NCBI RefSeq assembly: GCF_900113675.1
Contig: NZ_FOQE01000016.1
Coordinates: forward strand, 1,161 to 47,887
DNA: 46,727 nucleotides
From: Pisciglobus halotolerans
Lineage (GTDB): Bacteria; Bacillota; Bacilli; Lactobacillales; Carnobacteriaceae
Direction: 5' to 3'
Shown here piece by piece: positions 3,601 to 27,761 of this stretch (position 1 is its first letter; the number at the start of each line of letters is the position of its first letter). A program made the translations under genes and the position numbers. The notes under the pieces are model-generated. The model was not told the DNA's origin. It saw only the letters and a program-made list of their open reading frames with translations, and did no database searches.

Positions 3601-4494
3601 TTATACAGATGGGTGTTTTTCTTTGAAGTGGTAAAGAGCACCTATCATTCCGGCTGTATTTCCAAGATCAGCACAACGGATACTTTTTGGCATTAGACGT
3701 TCAGAAACAATGCTATTTTTCATCTTGTCATTAATCTTATTTTCAAGATACTCTTTTTGTGCAGCAATTCCGCCGCCAATGACGATCATATCAGGAGCAA
3801 TCAGATAAGCAATAGTGAGTAAACCTTGATTCAGTGATGCAATCAATTCATCAATTGCACGAGCAGCATCAGCATCACCAGCTTTTGCTTTTTTAAAAAT
3901 GATCTTTCCATTTAATTCCTCAACTGGAAAACTACTCATTTGGCTGTAATTGCGAACAAGTGCTGTGGTAGAAGCTTCGTCTTGAAAGGTATGGCCACTT
4001 GACAAAGGTAAGTAGCCTATCTCGCCGGCAGAGTGAGTAGAGCCTTTCCAAACTTTGCCATCTAATATGATAGCTCCTCCTACGCCTGTACCAACTGTCA
4101 CGCAAACAAGAGAACGGCTACCTTTGCCGGCTCCTTTCCAAAATTCACCGAGGGCAGCGCAATTGACATCGTTTTCAACTTCGCAAGGGACAGCTGCTGT
4201 TTCTTCTATCCATTGTTTAATCGGAGTGTTGGTATATCCGGGAATGGTCGGACCTGCAAAAACAACAGTTCCTTTTTCAGCATCCACCACACCCGCGGTT
4301 GATACAGCGACTCCTGCAATGTCATGATTTCTTTTCATTTCGATAATGATTTGATCAACAGCATCTATGATGTGGTTGTCTGTTTCAGTTTTTGGGGTCG
4401 GTATTTCATATGTAATAGTCAAAGGAACCCCTGAAGAATCAAAAAGACTATATTTAATGGCAGTCCCGCCTATATCTAATGCTAAAATACTCAT
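3601..4494 (-). CDS. nanK: ROK-family N-acetylmannosamine kinase
   Basis: This 297-residue ROK kinase likely phosphorylates ManNAc released by sialate lyase, feeding the NanE epimerase. The N-terminal phosphate loop LALDIGGTAIK, the catalytic Asp in CEVENDVNCAALGEF, and the second ATP motif VTVGTGVGGAIILDG are present. After HSAGEIGY the protein lacks the Cys-rich CxCGxxGC zinc motif found in many ROK kinases and reads LPLSSGHTFQDEAS instead. A GTG at 4500 lies only 3 bases from AAGGAG, so the ATG at 4494 (9-base spacing) is the better start. It follows the rpiR gene and is last in that unit. The substrate is inferred from context. Confidence 0.85.
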   Translation of the reverse strand: MSILALDIGGTAIKYSLFDSSGVPLTITYEIPTPKTETDNHIIDAVDQIIIEMKRNHDIAGVAVSTAGVVDAEKGTVVFAGPTIPGYTNTPIKQWIEETAAVPCEVENDVNCAALGEFWKGAGKGSRSLVCVTVGTGVGGAIILDGKVWKGSTHSAGEIGYLPLSSGHTFQDEASTTALVRNYSQMSSFPVEELNGKIIFKKAKAGDADAARAIDELIASLNQGLLTIAYLIAPDMIVIGGGIAAQKEYLENKINDKMKNSIVSERLMPKSIRCADLGNTAGMIGALYHFKEKHPSV

Positions 4495-14820: not shown

Positions 14821-16293
14821 ATGAAAGAAATCAGTTTAAAAGAAACAGTTTATCAAATCATTAACCATTACCCTGAGCTAAAAGGAATTTTAGTGGAGAT
14901 TGGGTTTACGCCTTTACAAAATCCCAGCATGGTCAATACAGTAGGACGCATGATGCCGCTTGGAAAAGGGGCTAGACGTGCGGGGGTAAGTGTAGAAACG
15001 ATTGCCCAAGCCATCGAGCCGTATGGGTATGTGATCAAGGAACGAAAAGTGAGAGATAAACCAAATCCGAAAAGCCGCCGTGCTGAAGAGATGGAATCGA
15101 GACAGCAGGTGCTAAAAGATCTGATCTTGCGATTGCATGATGGCGAAGACCAAGAAGTGATCAAAGCAGAGTTTCAAGAACATTTCGCGCATGTCAGCGC
15201 TTTTGAGATTTCGATGATGGAACGCCGTTTAATGGGAGAAGGGATCGAAGCAGAGGAGATCATGCGGCTGTGCAATATTCATGCTTCTTTGTTTGCCGGA
15301 TCAGTCAAACCAGCCGAACATACGTCAAAAGAGATGGAAAAAGCGGGGCATCCGCTGCGTGTATTGAAAGAGGAGAACTTGGCGCTGGAGAGCACGTTGG
15401 ACCGGATCGAACGTCTATTGCAAGCTCACGTTGAAGAACCGGCTGCTTTTTTAAAAGATGGTCTGCTCAAACAGTCAAAGTTGTTATGGGAATTTGATAA
15501 GCACTATGCGCGCAAAGAAAATAGCATTTTTCCAGTAATGGAAAGATATGGTATTTTAGCACCTCCTAAAGTGATGTGGGGTGTAGATGATGAAATTCGA
15601 GAGTTGTACAAGCAATTTGAAAAAATGATTCAGCAAGATCAATTAACAGAAGCTCCGGAAGCATTTACCGCTTTGAAACACGAGCTGATGGAAATGATCG
15701 TCAAGGAAGAAGACATTATGATTCCGATGGTACAAGATATCTTTAACGAAGATGATTGGTTAAAGATCGCTGAAGAATCTGAAGAAATCGGCTATTGCAT
15801 TGTGAAGCCAGAAGCCAAGTGGATTCCGGAAAGAACAGATTTTGATGAGGAATCAGCAGAAACTGCACCGGTTCAAGATGACGGGAATTTGCCATTTAAA
15901 GTCGGTTATCTGACGATGAATGAATTGGAAAACATGCTCAATCTATTGCCGCTTGAACTGACATTTGTAGATGCCAATGATACTGTGAAATACATCAATA
16001 ATGGTAAAGACCGGAAAATATTTCCGCGGACTAAAAGCTCGATCGGCCGGCAAGTACAGAATTGTCACCCGCCGAAAAGTTTGTCGATCGTCAATCAGCT
16101 GTTAAAGGACTTAAAATCAGGGAAAAAAGATAAAGAAGTCTTATGGTTCCATGCACGCGATCATTTTGTCATGGTAACGTATTGTGCCGTTCGCAATGAT
16201 GACGGTTCATATGCAGGAACATTAGAATATGTACAAGACATTCAGCCGATAAAAGATCTAGAAGGCGAGAAGAAATTGATCGAAGTTGAATAA
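14821..16293 (+). CDS. DUF438 protein with hemerythrin-like and PAS domains
   Basis: The 490-residue cytoplasmic protein combines a short N-terminal DUF1858-like segment (residues 1-60, VYQIINHYPELKGILVEIGF), a DUF438 block (about 85-155), a hemerythrin-type four-helix bundle (about 175-315) and a C-terminal PAS domain (about 365-485). Candidate iron ligands are in HPLRVLKEEN, FDKHYARKENSIFPVMERYG and LKHELMEMIVKEEDIMIPM. The PAS segment reads LPLELTFVDANDTVKYINNG. Such proteins are proposed to sense oxygen, nitric oxide or iron-sulfur damage; no output domain is present. It has its own AGAGGTG ribosome site and terminator. Confidence 0.88.
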   Translation: MKEISLKETVYQIINHYPELKGILVEIGFTPLQNPSMVNTVGRMMPLGKGARRAGVSVETIAQAIEPYGYVIKERKVRDKPNPKSRRAEEMESRQQVLKDLILRLHDGEDQEVIKAEFQEHFAHVSAFEISMMERRLMGEGIEAEEIMRLCNIHASLFAGSVKPAEHTSKEMEKAGHPLRVLKEENLALESTLDRIERLLQAHVEEPAAFLKDGLLKQSKLLWEFDKHYARKENSIFPVMERYGILAPPKVMWGVDDEIRELYKQFEKMIQQDQLTEAPEAFTALKHELMEMIVKEEDIMIPMVQDIFNEDDWLKIAEESEEIGYCIVKPEAKWIPERTDFDEESAETAPVQDDGNLPFKVGYLTMNELENMLNLLPLELTFVDANDTVKYINNGKDRKIFPRTKSSIGRQVQNCHPPKSLSIVNQLLKDLKSGKKDKEVLWFHARDHFVMVTYCAVRNDDGSYAGTLEYVQDIQPIKDLEGEKKLIEVE

Positions 16294-25571: not shown

Positions 25572-26123
25572 ATGACAAAAGTTGCTGTTTTAGTGGGCAG
25601 TTTGCGCAAAGAATCTTATACGAAAAAAATAGCTGCTGCTTTGATGCAGTTGTTTCCAGAAGATGTAGAGACTGAGTTTGTAGAAATCGGGGATCTACCT
25701 TTATACAATCAGGACTACGATGACCAAAACGAGGTACCTGAAGCTTACCGGACATTCCGTGAAAAGATGAAGCAAATGGATGCTGTTTTGTTCGCTACGC
25801 CTGAATATAATCGTTCTGTTCCAAGTGTACTAAAAAATGCTATTGATGTGGGTTCACGCCCTTATGGAGAAAGTGTTTACGACGGCAAACCTGCTGCTGT
25901 AGTTAGTGTATCTCCAGGAGCCATCAGTGGATTCGGTGCCAACCATCACTTGCGGCAGTCACTTGTTTTCTTAAATATGCCGACACTACAACAACCCGAA
26001 GCTTATATCGGGAATGTCATCAATCTGTTAGGTGAAAATGGAGAAGTGACAAACGAAAGCACGCTTGAATTTTTCCAATTGATTGTTAATTCTTTTGTTG
26101 AATTGATTCACAAATATCAATAA
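25572..26123 (+). CDS. NADPH-dependent FMN reductase (YieF/ChrR-like)
   Basis: The 183-residue flavodoxin-fold reductase has the FMN phosphate loop VGSLRKESYTKK at the N terminus, the isoalloxazine contact ATPEYNRSVPSVLKNAIDV, and KPAAVVSVSPGAISGFGANHHLRQ. Family members reduce quinones, azo dyes or metal oxyanions with NAD(P)H; the role here is open. It has a strong AAAGGAG ribosome site, its own consensus promoter and a terminator, so it is monocistronic. Confidence 0.9.
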   Translation: MTKVAVLVGSLRKESYTKKIAAALMQLFPEDVETEFVEIGDLPLYNQDYDDQNEVPEAYRTFREKMKQMDAVLFATPEYNRSVPSVLKNAIDVGSRPYGESVYDGKPAAVVSVSPGAISGFGANHHLRQSLVFLNMPTLQQPEAYIGNVINLLGENGEVTNESTLEFFQLIVNSFVELIHKYQ

Positions 26124-26143
26124 AATCAATCTAACCATAAAAG

Positions 26144-26187
26144 AACTGCCTAGAAAGCCAACATAGTATTGGTTTTCTAGGCAGTTT
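26144..26187. terminator. Terminator after the FMN reductase gene
   Basis: AACTGCCTAGAAAGCCAA pairs with TTGGTTTTCTAGGCAGTT (one wobble) and is followed by TT. The tail is short, but the stem is very stable. Confidence 0.7.
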
Positions 26188-26302
26188 TGATTTGTCCGAA
26201 AAAATTTTTTCATTAGGTGGGAAGCATTTCGGTTTAAAAAAGATAGTTTCATTTATTTAGGTTAAACTGACGCTTCTTTGGAATCTAAACGCAACAAAGT
26301 GA

Positions 26303-26572
26303 TCAGTCTTTGATTAAGTTTTTTCGTTCTAAATATTCCTCTTTACTTATTTCTCCATTAGCGAATTGTCTATCTAAAGACGCTAGAGCTGTTTCTTTAG
26401 AAGCAGGTTGTTTGTTCCTGTGTCGAATAACGAGAAAAATCACTAGGGAGATCATAAGAAAAATACTCCAATTGAAAAAGTGACCGCTCATAAAGCTGTG
26501 ACTCATGGGATTCCCCATAGACCCATGCTGGGTAAAAAGGTTTCCACAAAAATTTTGGAATGAATGGTGCAT
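26303..26572 (-). CDS. Met/His-rich small membrane protein with SHOCT domain
   Basis: The 89-residue protein starts at the ATG at 26572 with GAGGAG upstream; a longer frame to 26695 has no ribosome site. Residues 1-35 are rich in soft-metal ligands: His 2, 3, 16, 25 and 31, Met 1, 19, 23 and 28, and Cys9. One membrane helix follows (about 36-53, SIFLMISLVIFLVI), then a basic stretch and a SHOCT motif (LASLDRQFANGEISKEEYLERK). A CsoR-type operator 30 bp upstream supports copper or thiol-stress control. Copper binding is inference. Confidence 0.75.
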   Translation of the reverse strand: MHHSFQNFCGNLFTQHGSMGNPMSHSFMSGHFFNWSIFLMISLVIFLVIRHRNKQPASKETALASLDRQFANGEISKEEYLERKNLIKD

Positions 26573-26601
26573 GTTTAAATCACGCTCCTCAAAAATATAT
26601 T

Positions 26602-26619
26602 TATACCTGTATGGGTATA
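26602..26619. promoter_or_regulatory. CsoR/CstR-type operator
   Basis: TATACCTGTATGGGTATA is a near-perfect dyad (TATACC / GGGTATA) of the kind bound by the CsoR family of copper or persulfide repressors. On the minus strand it overlaps TATAAA at the expected -10 of the SHOCT gene. Confidence 0.6.
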
Positions 26620-26761
26620 CGGTAACATGAACTTGCTTTTTTAACAAGTAAAAGAATGCACAATCAATAACGAAAGAAAAAGAAAAGACATTCACTAGTC
26701 AATAATGACTTTTCATTTATTTTGGAAACAAACAAGTAAAAAAGAAATTTTAAAATTAAAA

Positions 26762-26799
26762 AGAAAGGGCTTGCAAGAAAAGCAAAGTTATGCTATTAT
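26762..26799 (+). promoter_or_regulatory. Promoter of the beta-glucoside operon
   Basis: TTGCAA (26771-26776) and TATTAT (26794-26799) are 17 bp apart. AGAAAGGGCTTGCA at 26762-26775, over the -35, is a weak cre-like sequence with three mismatches. Confidence 0.65.
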
Positions 26800-26807
26800 T
26801 TTCCCAT

Positions 26808-26897
26808 AAAGGATTGTGACTGGTGATGCAGGCAAAACCTAGATTAATGCGAAGGGACAAGTGGTTTGTCATTTGGCATTAGTTTAGGTTTTTTTTT
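26808..26897 (+). promoter_or_regulatory. RAT antiterminator and overlapping terminator, leader of licT
   Basis: The LicT/SacY-type RNA antiterminator begins AAAGGATTGTGACTGG and ends GCAGGCAAAACCT (26808-26840). Its 3' part is also the left arm of a terminator in which AACCTAGATTAATGC pairs with GCATTAGTTTAGGTT, followed by nine T. This is a textbook BglG-family switch. Confidence 0.92.
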
Positions 26898-26921
26898 ATT
26901 GGAAGAGGTGATGTTTACTGT

Positions 26922-27761
26922 ATGCGGATAGAGAAAGTCTTTAATAACAACGTCGTGCTCGCAAAAGCCAATGATCAATCTGAGATGATCGTAATGGGAA
27001 AGGGAATCGGCTTTCAAAAGAAAGTAGGAGATACTTTTGAAGAAGAACGGATCGATAAAAAGTTTGTCATTCAAGAAGATGATCCGGCTCAGCGCTTAAA
27101 GGAAATCTACCAAGATATTCCTGTGGAAGAATCAGATGCTGTTTTTATCATCATTTCTCTAGCTGAGCAGAAGTTGCAGCAAACCTTTGATCCCAATGTC
27201 TATCTGACATTAGCAGACCATATTCATTATGCTTTGCAGCGAAAAAAAGAAGGTATCCAATTAAAAAATCCACTAGCTTGGGAAGTTAAGAAATTTTATC
27301 GCCGAGAATATGAACTTGGCAAAGAAAGTTTATCTGTCATCAAAACTCATACACATACGCAGCTTGATAATGATGAAGCCGCATCGATTGCTCTCCATTT
27401 TGTAAACGCTCAAAAGGAAGGACAATTAATTGAAGAAACGATTAGAGTAACTCGAATTGTTCAAGATATTTTAAATATTGTACGATTGCACTTTGGTATA
27501 ACTTTTGATGAGGAATCTATCTCTTATAATCGTTTTTTAACTCATTTGCAATACTTTGCACAGCGAGTCGTTCTGGGAGAGTTATACCAGTCTTCACAAG
27601 ACACTTTTTTATTAGAACAAATAAAAGCCAATTATCCAGGATCTTATACTTGCACAAGCAAAATTGCTATCTATATTGAAGAAAGCTATCATTTTAACAT
27701 CTCGCCCGATGAAAAAGTGTATTTATCGATTCATATTCATCGTGTAGTCAATCAAAACTAA
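26922..27761 (+). CDS. licT: BglG/LicT-family transcriptional antiterminator
   Basis: The 279-residue RNA-binding antiterminator has a CAT domain at residues 1-55 (MRIEKVFNNNVVLAKA; GKGIGFQKKVGD). PRD1 carries H100 (or H102) and H159; PRD2 carries H208 and H271 (or H273). Phosphorylation of the PRDs by the beta-glucoside EII and HPr links activity to substrate and carbon status. It lies between two RAT elements, so it controls its own leader and that of bglP. GAAGAGGTGATG is the ribosome site. Confidence 0.94.
   Translation: MRIEKVFNNNVVLAKANDQSEMIVMGKGIGFQKKVGDTFEEERIDKKFVIQEDDPAQRLKEIYQDIPVEESDAVFIIISLAEQKLQQTFDPNVYLTLADHIHYALQRKKEGIQLKNPLAWEVKKFYRREYELGKESLSVIKTHTHTQLDNDEAASIALHFVNAQKEGQLIEETIRVTRIVQDILNIVRLHFGITFDEESISYNRFLTHLQYFAQRVVLGELYQSSQDTFLLEQIKANYPGSYTCTSKIAIYIEESYHFNISPDEKVYLSIHIHRVVNQN

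Follow-up and report, generated by a model that had tools for sequence, protein, structure and literature searches.

A solitary SHOCT membrane protein gene of Pisciglobus halotolerans carries a putative CstR operator

CsoR belongs to the same protein family as CstR, and the two bind similar palindromes. Among the closest described systems are the cst systems of Staphylococcus aureus and Enterococcus faecalis. The CstR cysteines are given as Cys31/Cys60 for S. aureus (PMC9774590) and as C31 and C62 for E. faecalis, for which a cst-like operon is described with CstR controlling RhdA, RhdB and CoaP (PMC9405070). PMC5480029 argues for just one operon under direct CstR control in S. aureus, which counts against a second target of the kind proposed here.

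The window analysed here, a stretch of 46,727 nucleotides of the Pisciglobus halotolerans genome, carries on its minus strand a gene for a small membrane protein of 89 residues (26303..26572, ATG start), with a Shine-Dalgarno sequence, GAGGAG, 12 nt before the ATG (26585..26590, minus strand). Upstream lies an 18-bp palindrome, TATACCTGTATGGGTATA (TATACCCATACAGGTATA on the gene strand; 26602..26619), a predicted CstR-type operator with the same motif as at the promoter of the genome's own cst operon. Searching the window with the pattern TATACCNNNANGGGTATA at up to two mismatches returned 26602-26619 as the sole place, matching on both strands, where 0.08 matches were expected. The original prediction had TATACCTGTATGGGTATA overlap the promoter of the gene. 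This holds for a −10-like TATAAA (minus strand, 26605-26600), of which the operator takes in the first four bases; the −35-like ATGTTA (26623..26628, minus strand) is weak, and the pair that it forms with TATAAA across a 17-bp spacer was not listed by the promoter scan. We also considered the site as a control element of the plus-strand antiterminator gene at 26922, which is unlikely because that gene has its own promoter-like site at 26771-26799. A second plus-strand promoter-like match (26574-26601) has no gene before 26922. Between the 89-residue protein gene and an FMN reductase gene lies an inverted repeat with 18-nt arms and a 7-nt loop (26144..26186), a possible bidirectional terminator that is absent from the scanner's terminator-like list. 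An Rfam scan of 26100-27000 gave no family at gathering score, and a plasmid DNA search with 26250-26950 gave no match.

A search of the genome (2.44 Mb in 88 contigs, 99.99% complete) revealed one CsoR-family gene at E ≤ 0.001, on a contig other than that of the 89-residue protein gene. Its product, numbered from MEYN, has Cys31, Cys60 and Asn56 and not a single His; Asn56 stands at the position of the copper-binding His in copper-sensing CsoR. Judged by its sequence, this sole CsoR-family protein is a CstR-type persulfide sensor. The closest solved structures are 7MQ1 and 7MQ2, both named CsoR in the PDB; 7MQ2 is called CstR in PMC9774590. The cstR gene is the last of an operon composed of trxA, rhodanese, CoA-disulfide reductase with a rhodanese domain, rhodanese and cstR, the reductase scoring 490 bits against TIGR03385, below the cut-off of 579. 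The promoter of this operon is TTTACA-17-TATATT, with the operator between the hexamers and overlapping four −10 bases; the register is identical at the 89-residue protein gene, where the operator also covers four −10 bases, and the two operators are identical at 15 of 18 bases. About 3 kb from the cst operon is a gene for a formate/nitrite-type transporter (PF01226; locus L008, 10657-11505), a family of which some members carry hydrosulfide.

The reading that we favour, and consider likely, is that the 89-residue protein gene is a second, unlinked target of CstR and is controlled by it. The gene is probably turned on by reactive sulfur, since it appears to have the same DNA switch as the persulfide-detoxifying operon. 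By analogy with characterised CstR proteins, CstR would bind the 18-bp operator over the −10 and block transcription; upon sulfide stress, rising low-molecular-weight persulfides would lead to a Cys31-Cys60' cross-link and to the release of CstR, and the gene would then be expressed together with the distant trxA-rhodanese-CoA-reductase-rhodanese-cstR operon. Of the inducers named in the original prediction, copper or persulfide, it is persulfide that gains from the predicted CstR and from the shared operator at the cst operon. The wording "minimal unit" calls for a change, as the gene seems to belong, as an outlier, to a regulon whose regulator is encoded on another contig.

The protein had been described as having ten potential soft-metal ligands in residues 1-31, one membrane helix and a SHOCT tail, a description that we confirm. 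The ten Met, His and Cys residues are M1, H2, H3, C9, H16, M19, M23, H25, M28 and H31; leaving out the start Met, the binomial P of 9 or more among 30 residues is 1.8e-5. In 17 other open reading frames of the window, which we picked for the comparison and concatenated (7,601 residues), the maximum for a 31-residue stretch was 7. A single hydrophobic span covers about residues 31-50, and the SHOCT tail (PF09851, residues 62-85) narrowly passes the Pfam gathering cut-off, with 28.0 bits against 27. Because Lys and Arg are absent from residues 1-33 and number three in residues 51-60, the N-terminus is probably outside. The AlphaFold single-sequence model has helices at 3-15, 28-54, 57-71 and 77-88, with a mean pLDDT of 76, a pTM of 0.33 and low confidence for residues 1-30. 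The product would be a single-span membrane protein with its Met/His/Cys-rich segment outside and its SHOCT tail inside. Its composition and the gene neighbourhoods of its relatives suggest that it most likely serves to bind soft ligands at the outer face of the membrane, probably Cu(I) in the first place, while thiol and copper buffering is perturbed by persulfide stress; the cell might need such a binder since persulfidated thiols could unsettle the buffering of copper. A copper-coupled role as such we regard as possible but on balance doubtful.

Profile A1, which includes the query itself, matches the protein at E 1.2e-27, and single-query matches within the family are at 8e-11 and weaker. 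In alignment, the protein is 41-44% identical to six copper-island SHOCT proteins, and its C-terminal SHOCT motif is kept in relatives. No close orthologue of the gene was found in genus, family, genome-collection or viral-contig searches, from which near records were possibly omitted and of which the genus search covered one genome, the source genome itself. The genome-collection scan gave 26 relatives, none from Enterococcaceae by title; a looser form of the site pattern lies near two of them, both in proteobacterial bins (L037, L038). Among viral contigs there was a single, partial match. In the stretch scanned upstream of 53 related SHOCT reading frames, the exact cst-type motif was found before none, and a site with one mismatch before one (L146). 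Many relatives are Met-rich at the N-terminus, and 26 of the 53 have a Cys within the first 12 residues. Within its first 31 residues the window protein has five His, whereas the related frames average about 0.4 over their first 30; this mean is approximate, like that for Met, as gene starts were set by rule (those of L164 and L058 are wrong and several others look too short); N-terminal His enrichment is, in these sequences, peculiar to the window protein among the relatives compared.

To assess gene neighbourhoods, we sampled 50 related SHOCT loci from 46 of 62 other matching genomes, the 16 excluded being mostly lower-scoring, together with 20 control loci from the same genomes; the loci span about 5 kb on each side, a few extending to as much as about 11 kb in one direction and some being cut by contig ends. 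In tblastn searches at E ≤ 1e-5, a copper-type gene (CopA, CopB, CopZ, CopY or CueO-type oxidase) was matched in 32 of the 50 related loci versus 3 of the 20 controls, and an ATPase at more than 250 bits in 22 versus 1, some ATPase matches possibly not being copper pumps. The control matches are L185 (CopY query, 98 bits), L191 and L195 (ATPase, 289 bits). Two of ten family loci have no copper match (L056, L060). One relative, on an E. hirae plasmid, is separated from tcrB by about 2.7 kb, and plasmids of E. hirae and Lactococcus raffinolactis have a relative next to lgt, with copper ATPase genes close by. Copper islands with prolipoprotein diacylglyceryl transferase are described in copper-resistant E. 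faecalis (PMC4511184). In our sample, lgt and a Met-rich SHOCT gene repeatedly occur together amid copper genes (L053, L057, L144-L148), and lgt matches occur in 16 of the 50 loci, including L053, the source of the lgt query. In four loci (L051, L055, L060, L182) a DUF302 gene comes after the SHOCT gene as a recurring pair (PF03625, as tested on L055), with CopB and a multicopper oxidase also present in two of the four. The L019/L058 relative, which has in-frame stops (one TGA, one TAG), resembles the CGNLFTQ stretch of the window protein and has copper genes in its locus; it looks like a decayed copy.

This linkage, the relative near tcrB and the Met/His-rich N-terminus would suit a copper-inducible gene, with a CsoR or CopY repressor that leaves the promoter as Cu(I) rises and a product that binds copper at the membrane. 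The gene-strand operator arm, TACAGGTATA, is moreover one base from the cop box TACANNTGTA. Against this, the sole CsoR-family protein found lacks any His, the window site fits the cst operator far better, and the copper genes of the genome are served by two CopY proteins and by cop boxes. In all, the genome has two copper-type P-type ATPases, seven matches to the HMA domain and two CopY-type repressors, one of which, at 117.0, falls just short of the NCBIfam cut-off of 122.0. Cop boxes lie before copper genes at 4210 and 11333 of L111 and at 4831 of L112, on contigs other than that of the 89-residue protein gene. The strict cop-box pattern is unspecific, since it is also found at 551, 746 and 3874 of L111 and at 6116 of L112; in the window it occurs at 15960 and 25228 only, and nowhere near the gene. 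The earlier statement that no CopA, CopZ or CsoR gene is adjacent is borne out, as tblastn of the surrounding 11 kb with CopA, CopB, CopZ, CopY, CueO-type and CstR queries gave no match. We rejected control by CopY or by a copper-type CsoR as unsupported, since CopY and cop boxes go with the copper genes found, the gene studied here lacks a cop box, and a copper-type CsoR was not found in the genome. Induction of the gene by copper is quite unlikely, and the copper half of the predicted regulation is not supported by the sequence, whereas copper stays plausible for the chemistry of the protein because many relatives lie among copper genes.

A dual input is conceivable, in which copper stress or thiol depletion, too, would release the CstR that controls the gene, so that the protein answers to both copper and persulfide. 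The copper-linked neighbourhoods of the relatives agree with it, and in S. aureus, HNO treatment is described as inducing copAZ and raising cell copper, the suggestion being that modified thiols set Cu(I) free (PMC5480029). However, the same source describes S. aureus CsoR, the paralogue of CstR, as unresponsive to sulfide, the inputs being separate there, and the CstR of this genome lacks His; we judge a dual input improbable. Under the favoured reading, control by CstR, a copper-island SHOCT protein may have been recruited to the CstR regulon, with persulfide, not copper, calling up a surface soft-ligand binder that would tie reactive-sulfur stress to copper at the cell surface; we put this forward tentatively, as a possibility that we would not expect to hold.

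We analysed how specific the operator motif is within the genome. Exact ATACCN6GGTAT occurs at two places, the cst operon promoter and the promoter of the 89-residue protein gene. At up to three mismatches, TATACCCCTATAGGTATA occurs at three places, the third being inside a rhodanese coding sequence with two mismatches, as close as the window site. The reversed control of the exact motif also gave two places; the TATACCCCTATAGGTATA search gave 2+2 matches versus 1+2 for its reversed control, and a loose motif search 14+18 versus 30+30. Raw motif counts are no higher than those of reversed controls, and the sequence-based case for an operator is the position of the site and the closeness of its match. 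In the cst operon, the first rhodanese gene contains a one-mismatch place (L008, 7266-7283; G000:C60:12265-12282) that encodes YTPKGK, and one-mismatch motifs stand at the same place of the first rhodanese gene in L225, L229 and L230. This probably reflects coding constraint, although an internal operator may exist there; we rejected the place as an operator, as the coding of YTPKGK explains the motif. Another motif place, on contig C46, was rejected since it lies inside an aldose-epimerase-like gene (named by eye).

Across 18 family genomes, the exact motif gave 41 matches. Fourteen of the genomes each have one of them ahead of a cst-type operon; one more is the window site, and 26 lie elsewhere. 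Most cst sites, and the window site, were scored "INSIDE" by the script owing to short or over-extended frames, and we reassigned them from gene positions. Among the 26, 23 are inside reading frames of at least 90 aa, which are possibly not genes, and the noncoding strays (L089, L215, L092) lie before unrelated genes, that of L092 falling shortly after a 209-aa frame begins. The four remaining genomes have a one-mismatch site, before the cst operon in three and before a yidD-cstR pair in one. A CCC or GGG arm is present in 14 of 14 cst sites and in the window site, versus none of the three noncoding strays and 5 of the 23 sites in frames. With a matrix built from 13 cst sites of other genomes, which we oriented with the C-rich arm first, the window site scores 21.1 bits, the leave-one-out range of the 14 cst sites being 16.0-27.5 and the next-best score in the window 9.1; in simulated DNA, 3 matches were obtained in 99.9 Mb. 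Against control by CstR stand the reversed-control counts, the weak −35 and the exact motif not being found upstream of related genes. A chance palindrome in an AT-rich leader, the gene being constitutive or under other control, would agree with those counts and with the relatives lacking the exact site, but it is very improbable, as equally good sites are expected at 0.07 per genome (about 6e-6 per 200 bp) and the operator stands in the same register to the −10 as it does in front of the cst operon.

The family genomes also revealed variation in cst loci. Two operator-like sites about 23-28 bp apart are present at five cst promoters (L225 4152/4175, L230 4108/4131, L228 3275/3302, L229 3283/3308 and L224 2710/2738), an arrangement that suggests tandem CstR binding, versus one operator-like site seen at the 89-residue protein gene. 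In three genomes of one genus (L227, L231, L232), cstR is paired with yidD, apart from the rhodanese-CoA-reductase operon; an exact operator precedes the rhodanese-CoA-reductase genes in G006 and G007 (both with yidD-cstR) and in G008 of the same genus. A second CsoR-family branch (L233, L234, L235, L236), seen in a survey whose narrow regular expression read 9 of 24 genes, carries NLKNC or NLKDC, with Asn at the copper-His position of CsoR, and adjoins an 814-816-aa CoA-disulfide-reductase-like protein (named by eye). This branch is probably also a sulfur regulator, given that adjoining protein.

In open-licence PMC full text, we found no report of SHOCT together with CstR, and co-mentions of SHOCT with copper look unrelated from titles and abstract openings; PMC9405070 makes no mention of SHOCT in its main text. 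If the favoured reading is true, CstR has a target beyond sulfur enzymes, and its control in this lineage extends past the cst operon to the membrane. It would also define a link between persulfide sensing and a small-protein family often found with copper resistance, and give a first functional handle on unnamed SHOCT proteins.

Compared with the cst systems of S. aureus and E. faecalis, the repressor is of the same type, the operator lies over the promoter as at the genome's own cst operon, and that operon is of the E. faecalis cst-like kind with trxA added. Unlike in those systems, whose targets, in the parts of PMC9405070 and PMC5480029 consulted, are sulfur enzymes and the cst operon itself, the putative target here is a solitary gene for a small membrane protein on another contig. 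CsoR and CopY copper operons differ in that no copper-type CsoR was found in this genome and its CopY genes and cop boxes are on other contigs. The protein resembles the copper-island SHOCT proteins of Enterococcus tcrB plasmids and of Lactobacillales CueO/CopB/lgt clusters in its size, its one span, its Met-rich N-terminus, in which those proteins often have one Cys, and its SHOCT-like tail, whereas it departs from them in being His-rich, in having no copper gene match within 11 kb and in the CstR-type operator before its gene.
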